From the NCBI RefSeq assembly GCF_034720595.1, contig NZ_JAYESJ010000001.1:770001-834000 (forward strand): a stretch of 64,000 bases of DNA, written 5' to 3'. The DNA comes from Rhizobium sp. CC-YZS058 (lineage in GTDB: Bacteria; Pseudomonadota; Alphaproteobacteria; Rhizobiales; Rhizobiaceae). The translations under genes were made by a program, and so were the position numbers. The notes under the pieces are model-generated. The model did no database searches. It was not told the DNA's origin and worked only from the letters and a program-made list of their open reading frames with translations. Shown here one piece after another: positions 1 to 16,485 of the stretch. Positions within the stretch are counted from its first letter, which is position 1; every line of letters begins with the position of its first letter.

Positions 1-1715
<1,715 letters not shown>

Positions 1716-2014
1716 CATTGCTTGTGCTCATCACCGCGCGCCGCGCGGCGATGATGCCATGTTATGTGCTCGCGCTGTCGCGGCCTTCGGCCGCTTCGCT
1801 GCGCACGGCGCGCCGGACGCCCGGCGGCTCGGCTCTGCCGGCTGCTGGAAAAATCCGGCACGCGCTTGCGGAGCCTCCAAACGGCTCCCTCGCCACTGCC
1901 ATACCAACGACGTGTTCAAAACCAGCGATTGCCGACTGGCGAATACCCTATTCGCACTGCGCACTTCGCACTTCGCCCCAAATCCAGCTTCTCGAAAAAC
2001 ACTTGCCCTTAGCC
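1716..2014 (+). other. 23S-5S internal transcribed spacer
   Basis: About 300 bases between the two rRNAs with no gene. A GC-rich imperfect hairpin near 1729-1754, just after the 23S end, could be an RNase III type processing stem. The stretch 1960-1980 carries short GCACT/CACTTCGC repeats. Nothing else is recognisable. Confidence 0.6.
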
Positions 2015-2132
2015 GACCTGGTGGTCATCGCGGGGTTCCCCCACCCGTTCCCATTCCGAACACGGCCGTGAAACGCCCCAGCGCCTATGGTACTTCGTCT
2101 CAAGACGCGGGAGAGTCGGTCGCTGCCAGGTC
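2015..2132 (+). rRNA. rrf: 5S ribosomal RNA
   Basis: Starts GACCTGGTGG and ends CTGCCAGGTC, which pair as the terminal stem. The conserved internal stretch with CCGAACACGGCCGTGAAACG follows around 2055-2075. The length of about 118 nt is normal for alphaproteobacteria. It is part of the same rRNA transcript. Confidence 0.95.
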
Positions 2133-2188
2133 TGCTAAGCGCAAGTCATCCAGTCTTCTCATCACATATCCCCAAACCAATCCCATTC

Positions 2189-2265
<77 letters not shown>

Positions 2266-2672: not shown

Positions 2673-3584
2673 CTACCGCTCGAACGGCTCGCCCAGTGAA
2701 GCGACGCCGTTGAGTTTGAGGAGGCGTTTGTTGGCGGAGATGATGCCGAGGACGATGATGGTGATCAGGTAGGGGAGGCTGGACAGGAGCTGCGAGGGCA
2801 GCTCGACGCCTGTCGCCTGCGCCGCAAGGCTCATCAGCGAAACGGCGCCGAACAGGCAGGCGCCGAGAAAGATGCGGCCGGTCAGCCAGGTGCCGAAGAC
2901 GACCAGCGCAATGGCGATCCAACCACGTCCGGCAATCATGCCATCGGCCCAGAGCGGCGTATAGACGACCGATGCATAGGCTCCGGCAAAGCCGGCCAGC
3001 AGGCCGCCAAAGGCAATTGCAGCCAGGCGAACACCCTGAACGGAATAGCCGATCGCATGGGCAGAGTTCGGGTTTTCGCCGACAGCGCGGATGACGAGCC
3101 CGGTCTTGGTAAAGGCGAAGCCGGCCCAGATCGCGAGCGTGAGAGCCAGCGACAGCCAGACGACGAGGTCCTGGCTGAACAGCCCGCCGACGACCGGCAG
3201 GTCGGAGAGGCCGGGGAGGGCGATCTTCGGCAGGCCCTTGACCGTCAGGCTTTCATAGGACTTGCCGAACAGCGCAGAGAGGCCCTGGCCGAGAATGCCG
3301 ATCGCAAGGCCTGTGGCGACCTGATTGGCGCGAAAGCCGAGCGCGACCAGCGCGAAGAGGAGCGAGAGGAGCACGCCTGCCAGGCCCGCGGCCAGGAAGG
3401 CGAGCACATGGCCGCCGCCATGATAGACGATGATGAAGGCGACCACCGCGCCCAGCGCCATCAGACCCTCGACGCCGAGATTGAGCACGCCGGCGCGCTC
3501 TGCCACCAATTCGCCGAGTGCCGCCAGCAGAAAGGGCGTGGCGGCAGCCAGCATTCCGGCAAGGATGAAGTCGACCGCGCTCAT
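2673..3584 (-). CDS. BMP-type nucleoside/nucleobase ABC transporter permease (YufQ/NupQ-like)
   Basis: Inner-membrane permease of 303 aa, mostly hydrophobic helices, of the BPD_transp_2 family. It would form the translocation channel with the other permease and the ATPase encoded upstream. The segment with AERAGVLNLGVEGLM near residue 30 is typical of this permease family. The ATG at 3584 overlaps the stop of the preceding permease by 4 bases, so translation is coupled. It is the last gene of an operon that starts near 10905. Family members carry nucleosides or purine bases; the ligand here is inferred from the deaminase in the operon. Confidence 0.9.
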   Translation of the reverse strand: MSAVDFILAGMLAAATPFLLAALGELVAERAGVLNLGVEGLMALGAVVAFIIVYHGGGHVLAFLAAGLAGVLLSLLFALVALGFRANQVATGLAIGILGQGLSALFGKSYESLTVKGLPKIALPGLSDLPVVGGLFSQDLVVWLSLALTLAIWAGFAFTKTGLVIRAVGENPNSAHAIGYSVQGVRLAAIAFGGLLAGFAGAYASVVYTPLWADGMIAGRGWIAIALVVFGTWLTGRIFLGACLFGAVSLMSLAAQATGVELPSQLLSSLPYLITIIVLGIISANKRLLKLNGVASLGEPFER

Positions 3585-4666
3585 GCCGGCCTCCGGTCAA
3601 GGGGGGTCGGCCATTCGAGCCGGTAGCGCACGAAGGCGACGGCGATGAGATAGGCAATCAGCAGGCTGCCCTGGAACACCCGCACCGCTGCGATCGGCAG
3701 TTCGGCCGAGACCATGGCCGTGTCGCCGCCGATATAGAGAACGGCCATCAGCAGGGAGGAGACGAGGATGCCGAGCGGATGCAGCCCGCCGAGATAGGCG
3801 ACGATGATTGCGGCATAGCCGTAACCGGTGGAGATCGACCGTTGCAACTGGCCGATCGGTCCGGCCACCTCGGCCGCGCCGGCAAGACCCGCCGCGAAAC
3901 CCCCGATGAGGAGCGACATCCAGATCGCGCCACCCTCGCTGAAACCGGCATAGCCGGCCGCGCGCGGCGCCAGGCCGCCTACCTGCAGCCGATAGCCCAT
4001 GAAGCTCTTCTGCATGAAGACATAGGCGGCAAGCGACAGCAGGATCGTCAGAGGGAAGGACCAGTTGACGCGGGTGCCATCGATCAGGATCGGAACCATG
4101 GCGTCATATTGGAACATGACCGATTGGGGGAAATTGAAGCCGTTCGGGTCCTTCCAGGGGCCGAGCAGAAGATAGTTGAGCACCTGTGCGGCAACGAGGC
4201 TCAGCATCAGCGAGACGAGGATCTCGTTCGCATTCAGCCGCACCCGCCAGAAGGCGGTGATCGCCGCCCACAGCGCGCCGCCGACCGCGCCGGCCAGCAG
4301 CATGGCCGGCCAGATCCAGCCGCCGGTTGCCGCCGGATACCAGACCGGAATGGCGGAGGCGAAGATGGCGCCCAGAATGAACTGACCCTCCGCGCCGATA
4401 TTGAACACCTTGGCGCGGAAGCCGATGGCGAGCCCCTGCGCGATCAGCAGCAAGGGCCCCATTTTCAGGAGAACTTCGGAAAAGGCGGCCCAGCTGAGAA
4501 AAGGGTCGAGCAGCATGGCATGAAACACCGCAGCGGGGCTGCGGCCCATGACGGCGTAGAGCGCGAGGTTGAGGAGCGTCGCGGCGGCGAGGGCGGCGAG
4601 CGGTGCGAGCAGGGTGGCGGCCAGCGATGCGCGCTCGCGGCGGACGAGATGCGGGACGGTTCTCAT
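3581..4666 (-). CDS. BMP-type nucleoside/nucleobase ABC transporter permease (YufP/NupP-like)
   Basis: The second membrane subunit, 361 aa, with about nine hydrophobic segments and the family motif FNIGAEGQFILGAI near residue 91. It is longer than its partner, as usual for the P/Q pair in this transporter class. The ATG at 4666 overlaps the ATPase stop by 4 bases and its own stop overlaps the next start by 4 bases. It probably forms a heterodimeric pore with the 303-aa permease. Confidence 0.9.
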   Translation of the reverse strand: MRTVPHLVRRERASLAATLLAPLAALAAATLLNLALYAVMGRSPAAVFHAMLLDPFLSWAAFSEVLLKMGPLLLIAQGLAIGFRAKVFNIGAEGQFILGAIFASAIPVWYPAATGGWIWPAMLLAGAVGGALWAAITAFWRVRLNANEILVSLMLSLVAAQVLNYLLLGPWKDPNGFNFPQSVMFQYDAMVPILIDGTRVNWSFPLTILLSLAAYVFMQKSFMGYRLQVGGLAPRAAGYAGFSEGGAIWMSLLIGGFAAGLAGAAEVAGPIGQLQRSISTGYGYAAIIVAYLGGLHPLGILVSSLLMAVLYIGGDTAMVSAELPIAAVRVFQGSLLIAYLIAVAFVRYRLEWPTPLDRRPA

Positions 4667-6234
4667 GCGATGCCCTTTCCGCCGGCGGCTTCGGCGCCGG
4701 GCGTCGTTGCCGCGCCGATCATATAGCGGCCGATATCCTCAAGGCGCGTTTCGCGGGTGATCAGCGAGGGGCTGAGCGCTCCGTCATGCAGCACCTGGAT
4801 CCGGTCGCAGATTTCGAAAAGCTCCTCGATTTCTTCGGACACGACGAGGATCGCCATGCCGTCATTGCGCAACGCAATCAGGCGCTGGCGGATGGCGGTG
4901 GCGGCGCCGATATCGACGCCCCAGGTGGGCTGGGCGAGAAAGAGCAGCTTCGGAGCCAGCATGATCTCCCGCCCGACGATGAACTTCTGCAGATTGCCGC
5001 CCGACAGCGCGCCGGCTTCCGCCTCCACGCCGGGCGTGCGGACATCGAAATCGCGAATGCAGGTCTCGGCGAAACGGTTCGCTTCGGCGCGGTCGATGAA
5101 CCCCTGTTTCAAGAGCCCAATCGGATGGGCGGTCAAGAGGCCGTTCAACGACAGGGAGAGTTCGGGCACGGCGCCGTGGCCAAGCCGATCCTCCGGCACG
5201 AAGGCAAAACCCAGGCGCCGGCGCTGTGCAGCACCAAGCCGGCCGACATCCTCGCCCATCATGAAAATACGGTCCTTGGCCTCCCGGCCGAGGCGGGTTT
5301 CGCCGGAGATGATCGCGGAAAGCTCCGACTGCCCATTGCCGGATATGCCGGCAATGCCGAGAATCTCGCCCGCCTTCACCTCCAGCGTCACGCGTTTCAG
5401 CGCGACGGCGAAGGGATCCTCCGGCCGGTGGTCGAGGCCGATCAGCTCCAGCCGTTTCTCTCCGGTCTCCATCGCCACTGCCGGGGGAATCTCCGGCATG
5501 TCGCGCCCGATCATCATCCGGGCGAGGTCGTGGGCGTCATGGGCGCGTGGATCGACATGGCCGGTCACCCGGCCGGCCCGCAGGATCGTGGCGCGGTCGC
5601 ACAGCGCCCGGATTTCCTCGAGCTTGTGGGAAATGAACAGGATCGAAACACCGCCATCGCGCAGGCGCCGCAGCGTTGCAAACAGGGTCTCCACCGATTG
5701 CGGCGGCAGCACGGAGGTCGGCTCGTCGAGAATGATGAGCTTCGGATCGGTCATCAGGCAGCGGATGATCTCCACCCGCTGCCGCTCGCCGACCGAGAGG
5801 GCATGAACATGGGCGAGCGGATCGACCTCGAGGCCGAAATCCCGGCCGAGGCTCCGCACGCGCGCGACGAGATCGCGCTTGCGCCCGGGAACGACGAGAG
5901 CGATGTTTTCCACCACCGTCAGGGTCTCGAACAGCGAGAAATGCTGGAACACCATGCCGATGCCCTGTCGGCGGGCTTCGGCCGGGGAGCTGAGCCGGAG
6001 CGGCTCGCCGCGCCAGGTCACGCTGCCTTCGTCGGGCGCCTCCACGCCGTAGATCAGCTTCATCAGGGTGGACTTGCCCGCGCCGTTCTCGCCGAGGATC
6101 GCATGGATCGAATGGTCCGCCACGTCCAGATCGATCGCCTGGTTGGCGTGGATCTGGCCGTAGCTCTTCGACAGGCCGCGAAGCGAGAGCAGCGGGGGCC
6201 TCAGGCCCACCTCCGTGTTGGCTGGATCTGGCAT
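4663..6234 (-). CDS. BMP-type nucleoside ABC transporter ATP-binding protein, double cassette
   Basis: Cytoplasmic ATPase of 523 aa with two fused ABC domains, like RbsA and YufO. The first half has Walker A GENGAGKST (48-56), signature LSVGERQ (about 146-152) and Walker B LIILDEPTS (166-174). The second half has a degenerate P-loop (GISGNGQSE, about residue 297), signature LSGGNLQ, and LAQPTWGVD where Q replaces the usual catalytic E, as is common in this family. It starts 10 bases after the stop of the substrate-binding protein. It powers import by the two permeases encoded downstream. Confidence 0.92.
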   Translation of the reverse strand: MPDPANTEVGLRPPLLSLRGLSKSYGQIHANQAIDLDVADHSIHAILGENGAGKSTLMKLIYGVEAPDEGSVTWRGEPLRLSSPAEARRQGIGMVFQHFSLFETLTVVENIALVVPGRKRDLVARVRSLGRDFGLEVDPLAHVHALSVGERQRVEIIRCLMTDPKLIILDEPTSVLPPQSVETLFATLRRLRDGGVSILFISHKLEEIRALCDRATILRAGRVTGHVDPRAHDAHDLARMMIGRDMPEIPPAVAMETGEKRLELIGLDHRPEDPFAVALKRVTLEVKAGEILGIAGISGNGQSELSAIISGETRLGREAKDRIFMMGEDVGRLGAAQRRRLGFAFVPEDRLGHGAVPELSLSLNGLLTAHPIGLLKQGFIDRAEANRFAETCIRDFDVRTPGVEAEAGALSGGNLQKFIVGREIMLAPKLLFLAQPTWGVDIGAATAIRQRLIALRNDGMAILVVSEEIEELFEICDRIQVLHDGALSPSLITRETRLEDIGRYMIGAATTPGAEAAGGKGIA

Positions 6235-6244
6235 GGAGGTGCGA

Positions 6245-7345
6245 TCACTTCGGCAGCGGCGTGGTAACGCCCTTGACGTGCCAGTCCATGGCGACGATCT
6301 CGCCGTCCGTCAGCGTCTTGCCGGCCGGCACGCCGTCCGAGCCATCTGCCTTGGCGATCGGGCCGGTGAAGGGCGAGAAACTGCCGTCGGCAATCTTGGC
6401 TTCGGCCTCCTTGATCTTGGTCATGTTCTCGGCGGGAACGGCCGTGTTCCAGTCGACCACGGCCACCACCTTGTCGCTCATGCCGAGGAAGGCGTTTGCG
6501 CCCTTGAAGGTGCCGGCAACATGGGCATCGACGGAGGCCTTGAAGAAGGGCGACCAGTCGGTGGCGACGCAGCCGAGATAGGTCTTCGGCGCATAGCTCT
6601 TCATCGAGGAATTCAGGTTGAAGGCGTAGACGCCCGCCTCTTCGCAGGCGGAGATGACGGAAGGGGTATCCTGGGCGTTGGAGAAGATCACGTCGCAGCC
6701 CTGTGCCATCAGCGCCTTGGCGGCTTCCTGCTCCTTGGCCGGGTCAAACCAGGAATTGACCCAGACCACGGAGACCTCGATCTCGGGCTTGACCGCCTGG
6801 GCACCGAGCGTGAAGGCGTTGATGGAGGTTATGAGCTCGGGGATCGCGAAGGCGGAGACGGAGCCGAGCTTGTTGGACTTGGTGAGCGCGGCGGCCGCCA
6901 TGCCCATCAGATAGGTGCCCTGGAAATATTTGGCGGCGAAGGGCGAGAAGTTCGGGGCGACCTGGAAACCGGAGGCGTGCAGCACCGTGACGTCTCTGTT
7001 GCGTCGGGCGATCTGCAGGCCGCCATTCTGGTAGCCGAACGAGCCGGCGATCAGCACCTTGTTGCCGTCGGCCACCGCCTTGTTCATGATCCGGTCGGCA
7101 TCCGGACCCTCCGGGATGTTTTCGAGGATCGTGACCTTCACCTTGTCGCCATAGGCAGCCTTGATCGGCTCCAGACCGGCGGCCAGCGCATGGCCCCAGC
7201 CGACATCGCCGATCGGCGAAGGCACGACGAGCGCGATACCGAGCGGTTCGTCGGCGGCGAGCGTGACGCGGGCGCCGATGGCGCTGGCAAGGCCTGTCAG
7301 TGCGACGCCCTTGAGCAGCGCGCGGCGGTTGATGGCGGTGATCAT
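6245..7345 (-). CDS. BMP family periplasmic substrate-binding protein
   Basis: Secreted binding protein of 366 aa in the Bmp (basic membrane protein, Med/PnrA-like) family. The N-terminus has NRRALLKG followed by a hydrophobic stretch and an Ala-x-Ala-like site near residue 31, which fits a Tat or Sec signal peptide. The body has the type I periplasmic fold pattern (GIALVVPSPIGDVGWGHA, then the hinge-region segment ADGNKVLIAGSFGYQ). Proteins of this family bind nucleosides or purines. It lies between the amidohydrolase (30-base gap) and the ATPase, so it supplies the ligand for this importer. Confidence 0.9.
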   Translation of the reverse strand: MITAINRRALLKGVALTGLASAIGARVTLAADEPLGIALVVPSPIGDVGWGHALAAGLEPIKAAYGDKVKVTILENIPEGPDADRIMNKAVADGNKVLIAGSFGYQNGGLQIARRNRDVTVLHASGFQVAPNFSPFAAKYFQGTYLMGMAAAALTKSNKLGSVSAFAIPELITSINAFTLGAQAVKPEIEVSVVWVNSWFDPAKEQEAAKALMAQGCDVIFSNAQDTPSVISACEEAGVYAFNLNSSMKSYAPKTYLGCVATDWSPFFKASVDAHVAGTFKGANAFLGMSDKVVAVVDWNTAVPAENMTKIKEAEAKIADGSFSPFTGPIAKADGSDGVPAGKTLTDGEIVAMDWHVKGVTTPLPK

Positions 7346-7375: not shown

Positions 7376-8758
7376 TTACAGATCGATGGTGGCGAGCGCG
7401 GCTTCCGCCTCGGCAAAGAGCTTGCCCTCGTCGAGGCCGGTAAATTCACCCTTGGCCCAGACGATGCGGCCATTGATCATGGTCATGTCGGTCGGCGCGC
7501 CGATGCCGACCTTGGCGATCAGGCTCAACGGGTCGTGGCGCGTGCCGACATAGTCCATGCGGCGGGTGTCGATGGCAAAGAGATCGGCGGCCATGCCGGG
7601 GGCGAGACGTCCGATATCAGCCCGGCCGAGCATCTGCGCGCCGCCCGTCGTCGCATAGCCCAGGAAGTCGGCCGGAGGCGGGACCGGGTGGGCGCGGGTC
7701 TGGGCGACGAGGCATTGCAGCATATAGGCCGAATGAATGCAGTGCATCAGGTTGGAATTGTCGTTGGACGCCGCCCCGTCGCAGCCAAGTCCGATCGGAA
7801 CGCCGAGCGCGCTCATGGCCGGGATGTCGGTCACCTCGGCGCCGACGAGATAGACTGGCTCCGGACAATGGGCGACACCGGTGCCGGAAGCGGCCATGGT
7901 GGCCAGCTCGTCATGTGTTAGCTCCCAGCAATGGGCATAAAAGGTGTCCGGCCCGGCAAAGCCCATCTCATGGAGGTAATCGACCGTTCGGGCACCGTGG
8001 CGCGCGAAGATGACCGGGCTTTCGCCTTCGCCGACATGGGTGTGCAGGCGCACGCCCTTGTCGCGCGCGAGACGGACGGATTCCGCGAAGGTCTCGCGGT
8101 AGCCATTGACCGGCTGACAGGGGGCGACGACCACCTGGCGCAGGCTGAAGGGCGCATCGTCGTGATAGGTCTCGATCAGCCGGGCGCAATCGGCGATGAA
8201 TTCGTCCGTCGTCTCCCGCATCTCATCCGGAATGGTTGATCCTTCCGATTTCGGCAGCGAGTTGCCGCCCCGTCCTGCGTGGAAGCGCATGCCGAAGAGA
8301 TCGGCCGCTTCGAACTGCCGGTCGATCAACCGCTTTCCGGCATGGCGCGGAAAATTATACTGGTGGTCGAAGGCAGTGGTGCAGCCATGCTTGATCATCT
8401 CGGCCATGGCCGTGACCGAGGAATGGTAGAAGCAATCCTCCGTCAGCCGGGCGAAGATCGGATAGATGCGATCCAGCCATTCGATGACGGAGAGTTTCGT
8501 CCAGTCGAGCTCGGCGCGGTTGCGCACGAAGCACTGGAAGAAATGATGGTGCGTGTTCACGAGCCCCGGATAGACGAACCAGCCGGTGGCATCCGACACC
8601 TCGGTTCCCTCGGGCAGGGGCTGTAGGCCGGCGAGATCGGTGCCGATCGCCTTGATGGCCTGGTTCTCGGTCAGAAGATCGACATTGCGGCGGACGAAGG
8701 GTCCCGTCCCATCGTTGAGAATGACGGCGGCGCAGTTCTTGAGGAGATGCCCGGCCAT
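7376..8758 (-). CDS. amidohydrolase, 8-oxoguanine deaminase-like (AtzB/TrzN clade)
   Basis: Cytoplasmic metal-dependent hydrolase of 460 aa with a TIM-barrel fold. Visible metal and active-site motifs are THHHFFQ (HxH, about residue 70), THVGEGE, HCWELTHDE and GCDGAASNDNSN; the last resembles the DGSASND motif of 8-oxoguanine deaminases. Family members hydrolyse an amino or alkylamino group from a purine or triazine ring, for example 8-oxoguanine to urate. The gene starts 4 bases after the GST-like gene and is followed by the BMP transporter, so the imported compound is probably a purine derivative. Hydroxyatrazine-type dealkylamination is the main alternative. Confidence 0.8.
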   Translation of the reverse strand: MAGHLLKNCAAVILNDGTGPFVRRNVDLLTENQAIKAIGTDLAGLQPLPEGTEVSDATGWFVYPGLVNTHHHFFQCFVRNRAELDWTKLSVIEWLDRIYPIFARLTEDCFYHSSVTAMAEMIKHGCTTAFDHQYNFPRHAGKRLIDRQFEAADLFGMRFHAGRGGNSLPKSEGSTIPDEMRETTDEFIADCARLIETYHDDAPFSLRQVVVAPCQPVNGYRETFAESVRLARDKGVRLHTHVGEGESPVIFARHGARTVDYLHEMGFAGPDTFYAHCWELTHDELATMAASGTGVAHCPEPVYLVGAEVTDIPAMSALGVPIGLGCDGAASNDNSNLMHCIHSAYMLQCLVAQTRAHPVPPPADFLGYATTGGAQMLGRADIGRLAPGMAADLFAIDTRRMDYVGTRHDPLSLIAKVGIGAPTDMTMINGRIVWAKGEFTGLDEGKLFAEAEAALATIDL

Positions 8759-8762
8759 CGGA

Positions 8763-9443
8763 TCAGGCTTCCACGGTTTCTGGCGTTTCGTGCGGATCCG
8801 GCTTCAGCTCGTGCAGGCGGTGGATGCCCGGCATTTCGATGAAGCCCTCCAGCGCCCGCACCGCCCGCATCCAGAGGCGGATCGAGGGGTAGGCGTCGAG
8901 CGAGACGCCGCCATCCGGCGCCAGCGCGACATAGGGGAAGCAGGCGATGTCGGCGATCGTCGGCGTGGGACCAGTGAGGAAGGGCTCGGCCTTCAGCCGC
9001 TGTTCGAACAGCGCCGCTTCAAGCTCGCGCAGGGCCGTGACGCCGGATGCACGCAGCGTGTCGACCGCGCCGGGGCGGTGCAGCATTTCATGCAGCCGTG
9101 CGCCGCCAAGGCTCGCTGTCAGCCGGGCCGAGAAAGCCAGCCACTGTTGGATGCGGGCGCTCGTTGCCGGATCGCCTGGCCCGAGAAAGGCCGGTGCGGC
9201 GTGGGCAGCGAGATAGACGAGGATTGCGGAGGATTCGGTCAGCACCAGATCGCCATCGACGAGGATCGGGATGGAGCCGGCCGGATTGAGGCTCATCAAA
9301 TCGGGGCCGCGATGTTCGGCGCCGGGATGGAAATCGACCGCCCGCAGCACCAGCGTGACGCCGGCCAGCGCCGCCATCAGGCGCGCCTTGTAGCAGCTTG
9401 GCGAGAGGATGTAGTCGTAGAGAACCATGGACGGCGCGGTCAT
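8763..9443 (-). CDS. glutathione S-transferase-like protein, candidate structural partner of the Rieske oxygenase
   Basis: 226 aa. The N-terminal thioredoxin-like half has SPSCYKARL near residue 14, the cis-proline region NPAGSIPIL and the gamma-Glu binding pair ESSA, followed by an all-helical C-terminal half. The start is set at 9443, where ATG overlaps the oxygenase stop (ATGA); a longer in-frame opening reads through that gene in another frame. In Pseudomonas caffeine N7-demethylase, the GST homologue NdmE is a structural partner of Rieske-less NdmC. The same gene neighbours here suggest the same role, but an ordinary conjugating GST is possible. Confidence 0.8.
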   Translation of the reverse strand: MTAPSMVLYDYILSPSCYKARLMAALAGVTLVLRAVDFHPGAEHRGPDLMSLNPAGSIPILVDGDLVLTESSAILVYLAAHAAPAFLGPGDPATSARIQQWLAFSARLTASLGGARLHEMLHRPGAVDTLRASGVTALRELEAALFEQRLKAEPFLTGPTPTIADIACFPYVALAPDGGVSLDAYPSIRLWMRAVRALEGFIEMPGIHRLHELKPDPHETPETVEA

Positions 9444-10285
9444 TGGGCCACCAGCTGCGCGCCATAGGTGAAGCTGTGGCGCTTCAGCCAGCGGCGATAG
9501 GCGACGGAGGTCAGGTCGGCCCGCGTCGGGATTTCCATGCCCGGATCGAGCGGCAGGCGGCGCGGGATCTGGTTTTCCAGAATCGAACGGTCCTGCAGGA
9601 AGATCATCTGCTGGAAGTGGATGAGATCGGTCATCGGCGTCTCGTCGTCGAACAGCGCCATCCAGGGCCAGACGTCGCAGAGTTCTTCCGTCAGCGGCTG
9701 CACGAAAAGCGTGATCACGTCCCACTCGCCGGGGCGGGGCGGGCAGGTCTTGTAGAGAACGGAGCAGGTCGGCGCCGGTACCCGGTACATATATTCCGTG
9801 GTGATGCCGCCGCTTGCCGATTTGGCGGCTTGCGGCTGATAGAACTTCACCTGCGTCGCCCAGACCTCGTCGGCGTCCTCGCGGATCTCCACCTTGTAGT
9901 TCTCGACCTCCGTGTGCGGTTCTGCGCCAAGGATATCGGTGTGGACGAAGGGGAAATGGGCGATGTCGAGAAAATTCTCCACAGCCCGGAGCGGCGAGCA
10001 GCGCACGCGCACCACGCCGACATCGACCATGCGCCGGCCCGGCTGCTCGGCTTCCGGAATGTCGAAGAGCGGCTTGGCCGGCTGGCCGAGCGAGGACCAG
10101 ACATGGCCGTAGCGTTCGGTGACGGGCAGGGCGCGTCCCTCGGCCGTGGCAACGGCGGCCGTGCCATCGGCGCCACGGGCGACGCGGATCGTCTCGCCCA
10201 TCAACAGGGTTTCGCGGCCTTCGGAGCGGAGCTGGCTTAAAAGCCCGACCGGGTACCATTGGTCGATCATAGCGTTGCTGGTCAT
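9440..10285 (-). CDS. Rieske-type oxygenase catalytic subunit lacking the Rieske cluster (NdmC-like)
   Basis: 281 aa. It begins like a ring-hydroxylating oxygenase (DQWYPVG, residues 8-14) and continues with RYGHVW (58-63), but the stretch between, which normally holds CxH and CxxH cluster ligands, is shortened to about 40 residues with no Cys or His ligands. The mononuclear iron site is intact: NFLDIAHFPFVH gives D107, H110 and H115, and D242 in QDRSILENQ is the likely third ligand. It should therefore receive electrons from another protein, most simply the Rieske protein encoded just upstream (ATGA overlap). Caffeine N7-demethylase NdmC has the same architecture and size. The reaction is probably N-demethylation or hydroxylation of a purine; the substrate is inferred. 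Confidence 0.85.
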   Translation of the reverse strand: MTSNAMIDQWYPVGLLSQLRSEGRETLLMGETIRVARGADGTAAVATAEGRALPVTERYGHVWSSLGQPAKPLFDIPEAEQPGRRMVDVGVVRVRCSPLRAVENFLDIAHFPFVHTDILGAEPHTEVENYKVEIREDADEVWATQVKFYQPQAAKSASGGITTEYMYRVPAPTCSVLYKTCPPRPGEWDVITLFVQPLTEELCDVWPWMALFDDETPMTDLIHFQQMIFLQDRSILENQIPRRLPLDPGMEIPTRADLTSVAYRRWLKRHSFTYGAQLVAQ

Positions 10286-10905
10286 GCGGCATCTCCGCTG
10301 CGTGCGGTTTCGGTCTGTCGGCGCAGGGCTTCCAGCGCACGCGAGGCGGCGATCTTTTGCGGATCGGTGGCGGTGGCCGGGACGAGCAGATGCACGAGGG
10401 TCATGCCCGCTTCGCCGGATGGAGCGGTGAGAAGCCGCGCCGCCGTGCCGGCGATCGTTCCATCGAACTGCAGGGCCAGCGTCTCCGGCATGCCGGCGAT
10501 CGTGACGCTGCGCAGGCCGACGAAGCCGTCATGGGCCGGCGCATCGCCCGCATCCTCGCTCTCCGTCACCCAGATGATGCCGTCCCGCTCTTCTGTCCGG
10601 TAGGTCGCCACGCGAATGGCCTCCGGCGGCTCCAGTCCCGGATGGGCGGGGATGGCGAGGCAGCGTCCGCTCTTGCCGTAGCGCCAGCCGTGATAGATGC
10701 AGGAAAGCGCCTCGCCGCGCACGAAGCCATGGGAAAGCCGCATGCCGCGATGCGGACAGCGATCCGCAACGGCTAAGACTGCGCCCCCCTGCGCGCGCCA
10801 GACGGCGAGCGAGGCAGAGGCCAGGCGAGCTGGAAGGACCGACGCTGGTGGAAGATCCGCCGAAAGAGCGACGGGGGTCCAGACGGAAGCGGGATCCAGA
10901 GACAT
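10282..10905 (-). CDS. stand-alone Rieske [2Fe-2S] protein, electron donor to the NdmC-like subunit
   Basis: 207 aa from ATG at 10905, chosen because MSLDPASVWTPVALS matches the normal start of Rieske oxygenase domains; a longer form from TTG at 11007 is possible. Cluster ligands are complete: CPHRG (C50, H52) and CIYHGW (C69, H72). After about residue 115 there is a tail of roughly 90 residues that looks like a remnant of an oxygenase helix-grip domain but has no DxxHxxxxH iron site. It is thus the mirror image of the next gene, which keeps the iron site and lost the cluster. No reductase is encoded nearby. First gene of the eight-gene operon. Confidence 0.85.
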   Translation of the reverse strand: MSLDPASVWTPVALSADLPPASVLPARLASASLAVWRAQGGAVLAVADRCPHRGMRLSHGFVRGEALSCIYHGWRYGKSGRCLAIPAHPGLEPPEAIRVATYRTEERDGIIWVTESEDAGDAPAHDGFVGLRSVTIAGMPETLALQFDGTIAGTAARLLTAPSGEAGMTLVHLLVPATATDPQKIAASRALEALRRQTETARSGDAA

Positions 10906-10984
10906 CGTGACATTCCAAGGCATTTCGAAGCGGCAGTTCGGGCGCGCTGGCCAGAAGGGTCCGGCGACGTCCAGGCGCACGTTT

Positions 10985-11025
10985 GCATAATATTTCTGCA
11001 GGCGCAATGATGGCTAATATTTACG
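10985..11025 (-). promoter_or_regulatory. upstream region of the Rieske operon with two TAATATTT repeats
   Basis: TAATATTT occurs at 10988-10995 and again at 11015-11022, start-to-start 27 bases, embedded in the similar words GCATAATATTT and GCTAATATTT. The AT-rich block stands out from its GC-rich surroundings and lies 80-120 bases upstream of the Rieske start. It could be a promoter with a regulator site; no regulator gene adjoins it. Confidence 0.35.
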
Positions 11026-11075
11026 CACAAGCCTTTTTTCCGGCGAGCCGAAACGATGCCCTTCAAGGCTGTGTT

Positions 11076-11381
11076 TCAATGGGCTGCCACAGCGTCCGCG
11101 CGCTGGATGTCCTCCACCCAGACCGAGATGGGGCCGAGCGAGCAGCCCATTTCCAGCGCATCGATCAGCTCCACCGGGCCCATGACCGTCAGTTCGATGC
11201 GCGCCTCGTCGGCATGGTCGACCGTTTGGCGGATGCCGAGCTTGGCGGAATGGCGGCGGATCCAGGGCAGGAAGCGCGCGACGTCCAGCCGACCGGTGAT
11301 GATCATCCGCTCGGTGCGAATCGGCGCGCCGTTGTCGAAGGGCGTTTCCGGCGCAGGAAACTGATGATGAGACAGGACCAT
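11076..11381 (-). CDS. acylphosphatase-like protein without catalytic residues
   Basis: 101 aa. Residues 22-92 follow the acylphosphatase pattern (RMIITGRLDVARF, then SAKLGI, then SLGPISVWVED), a small alpha/beta sandwich. In active enzymes an Arg follows the Phe of the first loop and an Asn sits in the second; here the corresponding positions appear to be Leu38 and Asp55, so catalysis on acyl phosphates is doubtful. It lies 51 bases after the L-fuconate dehydratase gene and probably shares its transcript. A binding or accessory role in the fuconate operon is a guess. Confidence 0.6.
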   Translation of the reverse strand: MVLSHHQFPAPETPFDNGAPIRTERMIITGRLDVARFLPWIRRHSAKLGIRQTVDHADEARIELTVMGPVELIDALEMGCSLGPISVWVEDIQRADAVAAH

Positions 11382-11432
11382 GACGGGCTCGTAACCGGTT
11401 CGTTGACGCGAGGAGGGGCGGAGCTCGGTCTC

Positions 11433-12710
11433 TCAGCGCTTGAAGGTGTACTGCGCAATCGATTCGGGTTTCATCTCGATCGAGAAGCCGGGTTTGCTGG
11501 GTGGCATATAGGCGGCATTGTGGATGATGCAGGGGTCGAGGAAGTGCTCGTGCAGGTGGTCGACATATTCGATCACGCGCCCGGTTTTCGTGCCGGAAAC
11601 GGCGATGTAGTCGATCATCGAGAGATGCTGCACATATTCGCACAGGCCGACGCCGCCGGCATGCGGCCAGACCGGCAGCTCGTATTTCGCCGCCATGAGA
11701 AGCACGGCCAGCACCTCGTTCAGCCCGCCCATGCGGCAGCTGTCGATCTGGACGATATCGATCGCGCCCTCGGCGATGAACTGTTTGAACATGATGCGGT
11801 TCTGGCACATCTCTCCGGTTGCCACCTTGACCGGTCCGATCGCCCGGCGAATCCTGGCATGGCCGGCGACATCGTCGGGACTGGTCGGTTCCTCGATGAA
11901 GAACGGCTTGGTGAAGGCGAGCCTGTTGACCCACGCGATCGCCTCGTCCACCTCCCACACCTGGTTCGCGTCGATCATCAGATAGCGGTCGGGTCCGATC
12001 ACCTCGCGCGCGATGGTCAACCGGCGAATATCGTCTTCGAGATCGCGGCCGACCTTCATCTTCACATGGTTGAAGCCGGCGTCGATTGCCTCCTGGCAGA
12101 GCCGGCGCAGCTTTGCATCGTCGTAGCCGAGCCAGCCGGCGGAGGTCGTGTAGCAGGCATAGCCCTCGGCTTCGAGCACCGCGATCCGCTCCGCCTTGCC
12201 GGGTTCGGCACGCGTGAGAATCTCGATCGCCTCGTCCCGGGTCAGCACGTCGGTCAGGTAGCGATAGTCGACGATGTCGGCGATCTGCTCCGGGCTCATC
12301 TCGGCAACAAGCCGCCAGACCGGTTTGCCGGCCTCCCTGGCCAGAAGATCCCAAACGGCATTGACGACGGCGCCGGTTGCCAGGTGCATCGCGCCCTTGT
12401 CCGGCCCGATCCAGCGCAGCTGGCTGTCGCCGGTCAAATGCCGCCAGTAGCGGCCGGGATTGGCGAGAATGCTGGCGAGCTCGGAGCCGACGACGAGGTG
12501 GCGCATGGCTTCGATCGCCATGCAGCAGATGTCGTTGCCGCGCCCGATGGTGAAGGTCAGCCCATGACCCGCAAGCCCCGGCCGGTCGGTTTCGAGAACC
12601 ACATAGGCCGCGGAATAGTCCGGATCCGGATTCATGGCATCCGAGCCATCCAGGCTCTGCGAGGTCGGGAACCGGAGGTCGTAGACCTTGAGGTCGGTGA
12701 TGCGGGTCAT
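11433..12710 (-). CDS. L-fuconate dehydratase
   Basis: 425-aa enolase-superfamily enzyme that dehydrates L-fuconate to 2-keto-3-deoxy-L-fuconate. Catalytic positions all match the Xanthomonas FucD pattern with a one-residue offset: K217/K219 (HVKMK), D247 (MIDANQ), E273 (IEEP), E300 (ATGE) and H350 (VWPH). The N-terminal capping domain starts ITDLKVYDLRFPTSQSLDGSDAM, with the DGSDAMN stretch seen in this subgroup. Co-located with the hydrolase, the SDR and the lactonase of the same pathway, which supports the assignment. Confidence 0.93.
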   Translation of the reverse strand: MTRITDLKVYDLRFPTSQSLDGSDAMNPDPDYSAAYVVLETDRPGLAGHGLTFTIGRGNDICCMAIEAMRHLVVGSELASILANPGRYWRHLTGDSQLRWIGPDKGAMHLATGAVVNAVWDLLAREAGKPVWRLVAEMSPEQIADIVDYRYLTDVLTRDEAIEILTRAEPGKAERIAVLEAEGYACYTTSAGWLGYDDAKLRRLCQEAIDAGFNHVKMKVGRDLEDDIRRLTIAREVIGPDRYLMIDANQVWEVDEAIAWVNRLAFTKPFFIEEPTSPDDVAGHARIRRAIGPVKVATGEMCQNRIMFKQFIAEGAIDIVQIDSCRMGGLNEVLAVLLMAAKYELPVWPHAGGVGLCEYVQHLSMIDYIAVSGTKTGRVIEYVDHLHEHFLDPCIIHNAAYMPPSKPGFSIEMKPESIAQYTFKR

Positions 12711-12730
12711 GGGAGGATGCCTTTGTCTCG

Positions 12731-13576
12731 TCAGATGTCAGCGCGGGCGGTCTGCTTCTGCGTACCCAACCCGTCGATGCCGAGTTCGATGACATCGCCC
12801 GGCTTCAGATAACGCGGCGGCTTCATGCCCATGCCCACACCCGGCGGCGTTCCGGTGGAGATGATGTCGCCCGGCTGCAGCGACATGAACTGCGAGAGAT
12901 AGGAGACGAGATGGGCGACACCGTAGACCATGGTCTTGGTCGAGCCATCCTGCATGGTCTCGCCATTGACCTTGAGCCACATGGAGAGGTTCTGCGGATC
13001 CGGCACCTCGTCCTTCGTCACCAGCCAGGGGCCGGTCGGGCCGAAGGTGTCGCAGGATTTGCCCTTGGTCCACTGGCCCTGGCGCTCGATCTGGAAGGCG
13101 CGTTCGGAGACATCGTGGATGGTGCAATAGCCGGCGACGTAATCGAGCGCGTCCGCTTCGCTCACATATTTCGCCGTGCGGCCAATAACGATGCCGAGCT
13201 CGACCTCCCAGTCGGTCTTCTCCGAGCCGCGCGGGATGATGAGGTCGTCGTTCGGGCCGGAAATCGCCGAGGTTGCCTTCATGAAGATGATCGGCTCGGA
13301 CGGCACGGTGGCGCCGGTTTCGGCGGCGTGGTCGGAATAGTTGAGGCCGATGCAGATGAACTTGCCGGTGCCGGCAACGCAGGGACCGAGGCGTGGATCG
13401 CCGTCGACGAGCGGCAGGCTCTCGGGATCGACCGCCGCCAAGGTCTCCAGCGCCTGCGGATTGATGGCCGCTCCGGCGATATCGGAGACATGGGCGGACA
13501 GGTCGCGGATCACGCCATTGCGATCGACGAGGCCCGGCTTTTCGGCGCCGGCGGCGCCATAACGAACGAGTTTCAT
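12731..13576 (-). CDS. 2,4-diketo-3-deoxy-L-fuconate hydrolase (FAH family)
   Basis: 281 aa, cytoplasmic. The fumarylacetoacetate-hydrolase fold is seen in FICIGLNYSDHAAE (about 113-126), the metal-binding DWEVELGIVIGR (about 158-169) and STGTPPGVGMG near the C-terminus. In the non-phosphorylating L-fucose route the enzyme splits 2,4-diketo-3-deoxy-L-fuconate into pyruvate and L-lactate. It is placed between the dehydratase (20-base gap) and the SDR that would make its substrate. The family also includes ureidoglycolate lyase; context decides for the fucose pathway. Confidence 0.87.
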   Translation of the reverse strand: MKLVRYGAAGAEKPGLVDRNGVIRDLSAHVSDIAGAAINPQALETLAAVDPESLPLVDGDPRLGPCVAGTGKFICIGLNYSDHAAETGATVPSEPIIFMKATSAISGPNDDLIIPRGSEKTDWEVELGIVIGRTAKYVSEADALDYVAGYCTIHDVSERAFQIERQGQWTKGKSCDTFGPTGPWLVTKDEVPDPQNLSMWLKVNGETMQDGSTKTMVYGVAHLVSYLSQFMSLQPGDIISTGTPPGVGMGMKPPRYLKPGDVIELGIDGLGTQKQTARADI

Positions 13577-13606
13577 GATGTCCTAGTCCTTGGGCAAGAA
13601 TGCAGG

Positions 13607-14341
13607 TTAGATGGTCCAGCCGCCGTCGATGGCGCAGGCCTGGCCGGACGTATAGGTGGCGCCGGCCAGATAGACGGCGAGATCGGCGATTTCCTCCGGC
13701 GTTCCAAGCCGCCCCATGGGCTGGCGTGCGATGAAGGCAGCCCGTGCCGCCTCGTAATCGCCCTGCGCCCGCATCCGGCCTTCGAGCGAGGGGCTCTCGA
13801 CCGTGCCGGGGCAGATGGCATTGCAGCGGATGCCTTCGGCGACGTAATCGGCGGCGATCGCCTTGGTCAGGCCGATCACGGCCGCCTTGGTGGTGCCATA
13901 GGCGAAGCGGTTCGGCACGCCCTTGATGCTCGAGGCGACCGAGGCCATGTTGATGATGGCGCCGTCCTTGCGGGCGAGCATGCCGGGCAGAACCGCACGG
14001 ATGGTGCGGATCATCGCCTTGACGTTGAGGTCGAAGGCAAAATCGAGATCCTTGTCCGGCATGTCGAGAATGCTGCCGCCATGTACGACGCCGGCGCAGT
14101 TGAACAGCACGTCCACCTGTCCGATCTCGGCGACCAGCGCCTCGACCGCCGCCGTATCCAGGACGTCGAGCCGATGGGTTACGATCCCGCTCTCGCCGGC
14201 AAGCTCCGACAGAATCTCCACATTGATATCGGTGGCGTGAACCGTGGCTCCCGCCGCGGCAAAGGCGAGCGCCGTGGCCCGGCCAATGCCTTGCGCGGCC
14301 GCGGTGATCAGCACCGTCTTGCCGCCGAGTTTTGTCGTCAT
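13607..14341 (-). CDS. SDR, probable 2-keto-3-deoxy-L-fuconate dehydrogenase
   Basis: 244 aa. Rossmann motif TAAAQGIGRA near the N-terminus, NCAGVVH, catalytic Ser plus YGTTK (YxxxK) and IDGGW at the end: a classical short-chain dehydrogenase. It oxidises 2-keto-3-deoxy-L-fuconate to the 2,4-diketo acid with NAD. The start at 14341 was chosen over in-frame ATGs at 14368 and 14356 because GAGGACC lies at Shine-Dalgarno distance and the protein then begins MTTKLGGK like its relatives. First gene of the leftward fuconate operon, divergent from the IclR gene. Confidence 0.85.
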   Translation of the reverse strand: MTTKLGGKTVLITAAAQGIGRATALAFAAAGATVHATDINVEILSELAGESGIVTHRLDVLDTAAVEALVAEIGQVDVLFNCAGVVHGGSILDMPDKDLDFAFDLNVKAMIRTIRAVLPGMLARKDGAIINMASVASSIKGVPNRFAYGTTKAAVIGLTKAIAADYVAEGIRCNAICPGTVESPSLEGRMRAQGDYEAARAAFIARQPMGRLGTPEEIADLAVYLAGATYTSGQACAIDGGWTI

Positions 14342-14716
14342 CGCTTTGGTCCTCATCGTTGTCGTCATTGCGTCAGAAGGCTGTGGTCTGCGGCTGGATG
14401 GCCCCTGCTTCGCTCACGCTTCTCACCGTTCGTTCGCCCGGCCCCGAACCTCTCCCTCAAGGCGCGCCGAACAAACCGTAAGCGATCACAGTCATGGGTG
14501 AAAGCGTGGTGTCGATGATCGATGCGTCTCGCGGCGCTTCGATCCTCCTTTCGCTGATCGCTCCCCGCCAGGAAGAAGTCGGTCTTCCGTACTCCCCCTC
14601 GGTTCAGTCTCTTTCTCCCTCTCTCTCACATATGGGAGGCTCATTCATTTACAAATCGCAACTCGCACAGGTCGTCAAGGCCTGCCATTGTTGCCTCGCC
14701 GCCGGCCTCTTCGTAT
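14342..14716. promoter_or_regulatory. divergent control region between fuconate operon and IclR gene
   Basis: 375 bases with no gene. It must hold the promoters for the leftward fuconate operon and the rightward IclR-lactonase genes. A pyrimidine-rich tract runs from about 14590 to 14630, followed by the AT-rich word TCATTCATTTACAAATCG (14640-14660), the best place for an operator; no perfect palindrome was found. Confidence 0.4.
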
Positions 14717-15532
14717 ATGAAGATGACGATTTATCGGGGAAACGAAGCCGTGGATGCGGAAGACGATCGCTACCGTGCGCCGGCGCTCGACAAGGGCCTG
14801 GACATTCTGGAGCTGCTCGCCAGCGTCGATGGCGGTCTGACGCAGGCGGAAATTGCGCGAAAGCTCGGCCGCAGCCCCAACGAGTTCTACCGCATGCTCG
14901 ATCGTCTCGTCCGGCGCGGCTACATCACGCGGATCGATGGCGACCGCTATTCCCTGACGCTGAAGCTGTTCGGACTGGCCCAGCTCCATGCGCCGACCCG
15001 CCGGCTCGCGTCCTACGCAACGCCGCTGATGCGCGATCTCGCCCAGCGCAGCCGCCAGGCCAACCAGCTGGCGGTGTTCGACCGCGGGTCAGCCGTCATC
15101 ATCGCCCAGCAGGAGGCCCCGGATTATTGGGGAATCTCGATCCGGGTCGGCTCGCATGTCAGCCTCTTCGACACCGGCTCCGGCCATGTGCTGCTGGCCT
15201 TTCGCACGCCGGGCGAGCGGGAGATGATGATTTCGGAGCATGTGAAGAGCCGGGAGGAGGTGACGCTGACGCCGGATTTCTACGCACGGCTCGACGACAT
15301 CCGCCTGCGCGGCTACGCGATGATGGCCTCGGCCCAAATCGCCGGGGTCTACAATCTTTCCGCGCCCATCCTCGGTCCAGACGGCAAGGGGATTGCGGCG
15401 CTTACCTGTCCCTATATCAGCCTCGTCAACGCGCCGAACGCCCCGGACATCACGACGACGATCTCGATGCTGTTGAAGACCGCAGCCCAGCTGTCGCTGC
15501 TCGCCGGATCGGACATTCCACAGGATAGCTGA
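14717..15532 (+). CDS. IclR family transcriptional regulator of the fuconate genes
   Basis: 271 aa from ATG 14717. The N-terminal winged helix-turn-helix is around residues 20-85 (ALDKGLDILELLA, then TQAEIARKLGRSPNEFYRMLDRL), followed by the IclR ligand-binding domain with the usual VGSHVSLFDTGSGHVLLAF. An in-frame GTG at 14750, preceded by GGGGAAACG, would give a start MDAEDDRYRAPALDKG and may be the true one. Its position between the fuconate operon and the lactonase makes it the likely repressor or activator responding to a fucose-pathway intermediate. Confidence 0.88.
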   Translation: MKMTIYRGNEAVDAEDDRYRAPALDKGLDILELLASVDGGLTQAEIARKLGRSPNEFYRMLDRLVRRGYITRIDGDRYSLTLKLFGLAQLHAPTRRLASYATPLMRDLAQRSRQANQLAVFDRGSAVIIAQQEAPDYWGISIRVGSHVSLFDTGSGHVLLAFRTPGEREMMISEHVKSREEVTLTPDFYARLDDIRLRGYAMMASAQIAGVYNLSAPILGPDGKGIAALTCPYISLVNAPNAPDITTTISMLLKTAAQLSLLAGSDIPQDS

Positions 15533-15639
15533 GGCGTGCGCCGCATTATCGGAATGCGATAGCTGCCGCCATTCTTCTTATTTGAACGTCTCGTTTCCGT
15601 GTGAGATAGAGGAGAGCGCATACGGGGGGAGCCGGTCCA

Positions 15640-16485
15640 ATGATCATCGACACGCATCTTCATCTCATCGACCGGTCGGCTCTGTCCTATCCGTGGCTGG
15701 CCGATGTGCCGGCGCTCGACCACGATTATCTCTACGAGACCTATCGCCTGCAGGCTCAGCGCGCGGGCATCGTCGCCAGCCTGCATATGGAAGTGGATGT
15801 CGCGCCCGGCGATATCGAGCGGGAAACGGACCATGTCGCCCAGCTCGCCGCCGCACCGGGCAGCCTGATCGCCGGCGCCATCGCCTCCTGCCGCCCCGAA
15901 GAGGCGGGCTTCCCGGCCTATGTCGAGGCGCAGCGGCAAAACCCCTTCGTCAAGGGGCTGCGCCGCGTGCTGCATGTCATGCCCGACGATCTCTCCGAGA
16001 GCACGCTCTTCCGCGAGAACATCAGGCATCTCGCCGGTGCCGGGCTGACCTTCGATCTCTGCGTGCTGCCGCGCCAGATGAAACAGGCGATGGCGCTGGT
16101 CGATCTCGTCCCCGACTGCGTCTTCATCCTCGACCATTGCGGCGTGCCGGACATTCAGGCCGGCGACGACGCGCTCTGGCGCGCCCAGGTGAGCGAGATG
16201 GCGCAAAGGCCGAATGTCTTCGGCAAGATTTCCGGCGTCGTCGCCTATGCTGATTCAGAGCGCTGGACGGCCGACACGCTGCGCCCCTTTGTCGAGCATA
16301 CGATCGGGGCCTTCGGCTGGGACCGCGTCGTCTGGGGCAGCGACTGGCCGGTCTGCACGCTGGGCGGCGGACTTCTGCCTTGGGTGGCAACCACCCACGC
16401 CCTCCTCTCCGGCTGCAGCCTCGCCGAGCGCGACGCCCTGCTGAGCCACAACGCAATCCGTCTCTGGAACCTCTCGATCTCGTAG
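15640..16485 (+). CDS. amidohydrolase-family lactonase, probable L-fucono-1,5-lactonase
   Basis: 281-aa TIM-barrel hydrolase of COG3618. Metal site HLHL (DTHLHL at residues 4-9), HMEVD near 50, DHCG near 166 and WGSDWP near 234 are the characteristic motifs. Members open L-fuconolactone, L-rhamnono-lactone or related sugar lactones. Beside the other fuconate genes it fills the lactonase step before the dehydratase. It follows the IclR gene by about 107 bases on the same strand. The sugar dehydrogenase that would make the lactone is not evident here. Confidence 0.83.
   Translation: MIIDTHLHLIDRSALSYPWLADVPALDHDYLYETYRLQAQRAGIVASLHMEVDVAPGDIERETDHVAQLAAAPGSLIAGAIASCRPEEAGFPAYVEAQRQNPFVKGLRRVLHVMPDDLSESTLFRENIRHLAGAGLTFDLCVLPRQMKQAMALVDLVPDCVFILDHCGVPDIQAGDDALWRAQVSEMAQRPNVFGKISGVVAYADSERWTADTLRPFVEHTIGAFGWDRVVWGSDWPVCTLGGGLLPWVATTHALLSGCSLAERDALLSHNAIRLWNLSIS

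Follow-up and report, generated by a model that had tools for sequence, protein, structure and literature searches.

A 64,000-nucleotide stretch of the Rhizobium sp. CC-YZS058 genome (contig NZ_JAYESJ010000001.1, positions 770,001 to 834,000; hereafter the window) carries a minus-strand operon that encodes a Rieske protein, a Rieske-less protein resembling NdmC, and a glutathione S-transferase (GST)-like protein. NdmC belongs to NdmCDE, the 7-methylxanthine N7-demethylase of caffeine-degrading Pseudomonas. We are highly confident that the first two proteins form a split oxygenase, and methylated guanine is its likely class of substrate. The operon as a whole probably serves the uptake and demethylation of methylated guanine bases, ending at xanthine, which suggests a soil bacterium's pathway for eating methylated guanines left from RNA. 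N7 is a tentative choice for the demethylated position, made by analogy with NdmC only.

An earlier note on this DNA had described the three genes and the ATGA overlaps between them, and coordinates, Pfam matches, and junction sequences bear it out, with an overlap at both the Rieske/NdmC-like and the NdmC-like/GST junctions. The operon extends further (Table 1). An amidohydrolase gene begins 4 bases past the GST gene and is followed on the same strand by genes for a BMP-family binding protein, an ATP-binding cassette (ABC) ATPase, and two permeases, and an acylphosphatase-like gene stands at the other end. The same nine-gene order (acylphosphatase-like, Rieske, NdmC-like, GST, amidohydrolase, BMP, ABC) is annotated in Rhizobium johnstonii 3841 pRL10, Shinella zoogloeoides, and Sinorhizobium sp. 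B11, so the grouping is not due to chance. The flanking genes differ in those three genomes, which suggests the limits of the operon.

Table 1. Genes of the operon, with their positions in the window and the basis of each assignment
Feature	Position	Strand	Basis
Acylphosphatase-like protein without the catalytic residues; possible fourth component	11076..11381	-	Pfam match below cut-off; 1ulr alignment
Free Rieske subunit, no iron site	10282..10905	-	207 aa; Pfam Rieske 75 bits
NdmC-like catalytic subunit, Rieske cluster part deleted	9440..10285	-	281 aa; Pfam VanA_C 76 bits
GST-like protein, NdmE position	8763..9443	-	226 aa; GST_N and GST_C
Amidohydrolase with full NdmH residue signature	7376..8758	-	13/13 residues at offset +1
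AtzT-like periplasmic binding protein of the BMP family; predicted to bind purines	6245..7345	-	6pi5 and 3s99 matches
ABC transporter ATP-binding protein	4663..6234	-	Open reading frame; orthologue annotated in pRL10
ABC transporter permease 1	3581..4666	-	Open reading frame; orthologue annotated in pRL10
ABC transporter permease 2	2673..3584	-	Open reading frame; orthologue annotated in pRL10

The Rieske protein retains the cluster ligands (C50-P-H52...C69-x-x-H72) and has no iron site, and here the Pfam match and a residue check agree with what had been read earlier. It comprises a Rieske domain of the oxygenase alpha type (residues ~8 to 117) and a remnant catalytic part (~125 to 207). Its predicted single-chain structure shows a second folded part at residues 128 to 206 and aligns over its entire length with an intact alpha subunit of a Rieske oxygenase, the catalytic part being shrunken. 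The earlier description of a Rieske domain acting as a free small protein was thus right about "free"; the structure alignment is that of a shrunken whole oxygenase subunit and not of a bare domain. That the protein is instead an ordinary Rieske ferredoxin, feeding an iron-only oxygenase from outside, is very improbable. Its closest sequences are oxygenase alpha subunits (SxtT, E 2.3e-27), with ferredoxins at 1.6e-7 or worse, it aligns with alpha subunits over its full length, and its C-terminal tail is conserved (S133 and R195 are the same in all of 40 rows, H172 in nearly all). A ferredoxin consisting of a single Rieske domain and nothing more fails on this sequence ranking, on the alpha-subunit alignment, and on the second folded part. 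Two further Rieske matches occur elsewhere in the genome (L159 and L160).

The 281-residue protein has the complementary composition. Its iron site consists of N104, D107, H110, H115, and D232, and it has no Pfam Rieske match, consistent with the loss of the cluster region proposed from the sequence. Three of the iron-site residues named earlier (D107, H110, and H115) stand; "D242" does not, as residue 242 is Arg and the carboxylate is D232. The pattern N-D-H-H-D occupies the five iron-site columns in 97 of 100 aligned NdmC-like stretches, a set that includes stretches of some intact oxygenases; the other three are two fragments and one with G for N. The predicted structure aligns with an intact oxygenase subunit, as the mirror image of the free Rieske subunit. 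Both halves therefore resemble intact enzymes (SxtT, SxtDIOX [GxtA], NdmA, NdmB, and dicamba monooxygenase), from which they differ in that each lacks the other's cofactor site.

Family searches and phylogeny, the checks to which the NdmC-like identity was put, support it. The protein shares 45% identity with NdmC of Pseudomonas sp. S37, for which all five ndm genes have been reported (PMC8055839), and in a tree it groups with Rieske-less rows, apart from intact oxygenases. Proteins annotated as HpxD are remote matches (28 to 31% identity). At eight loci (L140 to L143 and L147 to L150), NdmC-like matches lie in longer frames of 327 to 347 aa, and several of these frames also encode Rieske ligands; these loci adjoin the same kind of BMP/ABC importer and are a possible picture of the unsplit ancestor.

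NdmC-like matches at E ≤ 1e-20 were found in 50 of 297 genomes of the order, 11 of 385 of a class sample, and 24 of 398 of a phylum sample; the three samples share genomes. Gene neighborhoods were compared in two sets of loci, which were not added together because they overlap (e.g., L090/L237 and L128/L169). Set 1 holds 89 loci, namely the window, 9 plasmid loci, and 79 genome stretches, some of which share one contig (L138 and L139 overlap); it omits three matches (G827, G691, and G949) and a duplicate of the window (L153). A free Rieske gene is present at 46 of these loci (45 with a GST gene and 4 with a separate VanB-like reductase gene) and an NdmD-type fusion at 21 (20 with a GST gene), and 22 belong to neither class. 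Set 2, the best 80 loci among the matches listed for a Klebsiella NdmC query, divides into 37 free, 30 fused, and 13 neither. Its flanks are short, its free class includes a contig-end NdmD fragment (L165), and at least four of the 13 "neither" loci (L195, L197, L229, and L239) have a Rieske gene just past the stretch on the same contig.

The complex had been called rhizobial. The gene system does occur in rhizobia, and also in Variovorax, Paracoccus, Pseudooceanicola, and acetic acid bacteria. The arrangement varies among these relatives. In Variovorax paradoxus (L034, 6980-8794) the NdmC-like domain is fused to a reductase and the Rieske protein is free, the opposite of the NdmD fusion, and Paracoccus alcaliphilus has a free Rieske gene and a separate VanB-type reductase gene. 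Paracoccus, Pseudooceanicola, and acetic acid bacteria also show doubled modules beside one reductase; six such loci (L193, L200, L203, L205, L206, and L212) encode an intact oxygenase, two NdmC-like proteins, two free Rieske proteins, two GSTs, one VanB-like reductase, and one acylphosphatase-like protein. Quick trees were built without bootstraps, omitting L153, L035, exact duplicates, and short pieces, and gave long-branch warnings. In the NdmC tree (177 rows), one supported branch splits off the intact oxygenases, and free and fused loci are separated by three changes, as they also are in the Rieske-domain tree. The three changes on the NdmC tree indicate that the free-Rieske and NdmD-type forms are largely separate lineages, with unlabelled rows scattered. 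Free-Rieske rows against all other labels require 14 changes, owing to interspersed rows that lack a Rieske gene within reach.

The gene that follows the NdmC-like gene does encode a GST-like protein, as previously stated, with GST_N (53.7 bits) and GST_C_2 (31.4 bits) both above their cut-offs. It is 40% identical to the GST at the NdmE position of Pseudomonas sp. S37. The motif around the serine that we take to bind glutathione reads ESSAI in the window; among relatives of either class, DAQAI is found most often.

The acylphosphatase-like gene and the link to a dimethylguanine hydrolase, described below, are both absent from the earlier note. The product of the former matches Pfam Acylphosphatase at 16.9 bits, under the 22.5 cut-off, and aligns weakly with 1ulr (E 0.57). 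The Arg and Asn that are presumably the catalytic residues of acylphosphatase read Leu and His, so the protein does not qualify as an active acylphosphatase. Among 39 aligned relatives, the window protein included, the Arg occurs in one (L099) and the Asn in none, and 35 share a C-[SL]-LGP motif. The gene tracks the free Rieske form. It lies near 38 of 46 free-Rieske loci in set 1 versus none of 21 fusion loci, and in 35 of the 46 it is on the same strand within 600 nt 5' of the Rieske domain; among the matches listed, set 2 gives 34 of 37 free loci, all within that distance and on that strand, and none of 30 fused loci. This co-occurrence does not represent many independent events, because the genes are inherited together within few clades. 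The protein is likely a further non-catalytic, structural component.

The system shares with NdmCDE a Rieske-less catalytic subunit, a Rieske donor on another polypeptide, and a GST-like protein. In NdmCDE, however, the donor NdmD is a Rieske domain fused to an FMN/NADH/plant-ferredoxin reductase. We did not class the window system as NdmCDE because its Rieske protein is a free 207-residue chain and the operon has no reductase; it differs also in its acylphosphatase-like gene, guanine-type hydrolase, and BMP importer. The earlier proposal of the same logic as NdmCDE therefore holds for the Rieske-less subunit and the GST and not for the reductase partner. The tail of the free Rieske subunit has a homologue in NdmD of Pseudomonas sp. 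S37 (L166), lying between the Rieske part and the reductase part; NdmD may thus have a reduced oxygenase subunit as its N-terminal half. On the present reading, NdmCDE would pass from a single curiosity to a widespread class of Rieske oxygenases with two reciprocally degenerate subunits and a candidate fourth component.

An operon encoding a rhizobial NdmCDE proper, which would demethylate methylxanthines (e.g., 7-methylxanthine) with the amidohydrolase in an unrelated step, is improbable. The identities to the S37 proteins (45% for NdmC, 40% for the GST, and 37% for the Rieske protein) favor it, and ndmCDE homologues of unknown function have already been noted in Sinorhizobium and Mesorhizobium (PMC4408171). 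Against it, the NdmD fusion is absent, the two forms fall into largely separate lineages, and a deaminase would be useless for methylxanthines, whereas guanine-type deaminases, as judged by signature, lie near 26 of 46 free-Rieske loci and 1 of 21 NdmD-type loci in set 1 (5 of 22 others).

The guanine link comes from the amidohydrolase. Thirteen functional residues were listed for poNdmH, an N2,N2-dimethylguanine hydrolase (NdmH) (PMC13054789), namely CQNN plus Q74, W85, W93, Y98, Y133, E243, H275, P300, and D326 in poNdmH numbering. The window protein matches them all at the constant offset given in Table 1, and no other offset from -15 to 15 gave more than two matches. It is 57 to 58% identical to a pADP-1 protein, titled only "amidohydrolase" in its record, that has SSII in place of CQNN; SSII is the signature reported to define AtzB (PMC13054789). 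An 8-oxoguanine deaminase (PRK08203) was rejected, as the match scored 373.5 bits against an NCBIfam equivalog cut-off of 532 and the solved relatives are of the SSS type where the window shows NdmH residues. Members of the NdmH/AtzB cluster split off amino, alkylamino, and dialkylamino groups, and the NdmH enzymes were reported to favor dimethylguanine over guanine 150- to 3600-fold (PMC13054789).

Amidohydrolase types at the loci were assigned from the 13 alignment columns, with six proteins run against NCBIfam. The full NdmH signature occurs in 12 of 88 aligned amidohydrolases; other types include guanine deaminase and 8-oxoguanine deaminase, placed by NCBIfam cut-off for representatives only. 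Relatives with canonical guanine deaminase fit a demethylation to guanine. Searched at E ≤ 1e-130, NdmH was found in 7 of 297 and 5 of 398 genomes (8 distinct), always beside the split oxygenase; in Methylorubrum zatmanii, NdmH, NdmC-like, and free Rieske genes lie on one contig. Nine genomes have an NdmC-like protein at least 82% identical, eight of them with an adjoining NdmH gene. Five other loci (L096, L102, L103, L107, and L126) have NdmC-like genes and no Rieske gene in the stretch, and adjoin amidohydrolases of other signatures; that of L096 is closest to the N-ethylammeline chlorohydrolase and 5'-deoxyadenosine deaminase models, below their cut-offs.

Another possibility is that the oxygenase hydroxylates a purine at carbon, as HpxD (a Rieske xanthine hydroxylase) does, with NdmH working on the same pool. 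The remote HpxD-annotated matches speak for it, as do relatives that adjoin an 8-oxoguanine deaminase (one checked, 598 bits against the cut-off of 532). We regard it as unlikely, as the NdmC-like protein is far closer to the NdmC group than to HpxD and the dimethylguanine preference of NdmH points to methylated bases. A literature search on cytokinin degradation returned nothing relevant.

The importer also points to a purine. Its binding protein belongs to the BMP/PnrA solute-binding family (Pfam Bmp, 132.7 bits; cut-off 24.1), and the nearest solved structure over almost its whole length is 6pi5 (AtzT, E 3.9e-79), with 3s99 also matching (E 4.3e-76). AtzT, a guanine- and hydroxyatrazine-binding protein, was reported to bind guanine at 110 nM (PMC6834077). 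We mapped its guanine contacts with paper numbering equal to chain position + 5; five of seven are kept (S97, F98, E165, W194, and N218), and Y45 reads Trp. Together, the AtzT-like importer and the NdmH-type hydrolase strongly support the purine-like substrate that had been suggested from the three oxygenase genes.

These components allow a provisional scheme for methylated guanine demethylation. The AtzT-like importer, judged by homology, would take up the base. The oxygenase would be a split Rieske non-heme iron enzyme in which one kind of alpha subunit is present as two copies with reciprocal losses, and it would remove a methyl group by hydroxylation, with N-demethylation as the predicted reaction type. 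Folds and ligands place the [2Fe-2S] cluster on the free Rieske subunit and the mononuclear iron on the NdmC-like subunit, presumably within one complex. In trimeric Rieske oxygenases, cluster and iron meet across a subunit interface. Here the two would likewise face each other across the interface, with electrons passing through the bridging Asp D107; the 3:3:3 stoichiometry reported for NdmCDE (PMC10380055) would allow this. The GST-like protein may act as a scaffold, as reported for NdmE (PMC10380055), with the acylphosphatase-like protein as an additional non-catalytic component. The structure of the NdmCDE complex was called unsolved in 2026 (PMC13237722).

The NdmH-type hydrolase, going by its residues, would strip the N2 substituent (amino, methylamino, or dimethylamino), leaving xanthine. 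NdmH clears N2 substituents itself, and the oxygenase therefore most likely acts at another ring nitrogen. Candidate substrates are 7-methylguanine, or N2,N2,7-trimethylguanine ahead of NdmH. Reducing power would come from a reductase encoded elsewhere in the genome. Two were considered and neither can be assigned as the dedicated donor: a GbcB-like reductase adjoins a GbcA-like oxygenase (both under their cut-offs), and a VanB-like reductase, 40% identical to a Paracoccus reductase, adjoins another oxygenase.

Several observations weigh against the proposed pathway. The missing donor is the most serious gap and argues against a simple copy of NdmCDE: the operon contains no reductase gene, and of 15 chosen free-Rieske genomes only 7 yielded a VanB-like protein at E ≤ 1e-30. 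By sequence alone, the tail of the free Rieske subunit gave 29% against NdmC and 10% against intact oxygenases (78.6% and 1.5% for the NdmD stretch), so its link to the catalytic domain is weak by sequence and rests mainly on alignment of the predicted structure. The AtzT contact N220 is not conserved, and the N218-N220 loop is one residue longer. Genome G087, the exception among the nine close relatives (NdmC 85% identical, locus L076), has the module with neither NdmH nor importer, and no NdmH was found in that genome at E ≤ 1e-130. Finally, no amidohydrolase was detected in the stretch at 20 of 46 free-Rieske loci in set 1.

The free-Rieske form, the acylphosphatase-like gene, and the NdmH link were not found in the literature searched, with most subscription papers and the homologue list of PMC3754594 outside the search. 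The text of the NdmH paper contains none of the terms "Rieske," "operon," "gene cluster," and "transporter," and treats genomic context as follow-up work (PMC13054789); here the hydrolase gene shares its operon with genes for a split oxygenase and an importer. The dimethylguanine hydrolase reported in 2026 would gain a genomic pathway of importer, oxygenase, and hydrolase that is testable in rhizobia such as R. johnstonii 3841.

Of 12 genomes searched at E ≤ 1e-30, G580 has two free Rieske genes and the other 11 have a single one. Six of these 11 carry two NdmC-like genes, so that a single Rieske subunit may work with two catalytic subunits; in five of the six, the second copy is next to an amidohydrolase with a different signature. 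A Kaistia species (G099) exemplifies two NdmC-like genes with one Rieske gene. A rather speculative extension, which we think doubtful, is that the Rieske, GST-like, and acylphosphatase-like proteins form a shared electron-delivery core and the NdmC-like protein an exchangeable cartridge, that of the window being for RNA methylguanines. If true, a genome could obtain several purine demethylases from a single Rieske subunit, and the window target would perhaps be the N2,N2,7-trimethylguanine of eukaryotic snRNA caps, demethylated at N7 and then passed to NdmH. Electron passage in a split complex and the swapping of catalytic subunits on one Rieske core become directly testable.

Upstream of the operon, window positions 11433-16485 encode an enolase-superfamily dehydratase, a short-chain dehydrogenase/reductase, an IclR regulator, and a fuconolactonase-like amidohydrolase, a sugar-acid set separate from the operon; one of its proteins scored 431.7 bits to 2,4-didehydro-3-deoxy-L-rhamnonate hydrolase (cut-off 500). 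These fucose/rhamnose-type genes were excluded as operon members, the orthologous R. johnstonii operon standing without them. A search for a riboswitch ahead of the operon gave no Rfam match at E ≤ 1 over 10700-11700, and at gathering scores Rfam returned rRNA and tRNA only across the window. Just past the last gene of the operon lie the end of a 23S rRNA gene, a 5S rRNA gene, and a tRNA gene (window positions 1-2262), running towards the operon.

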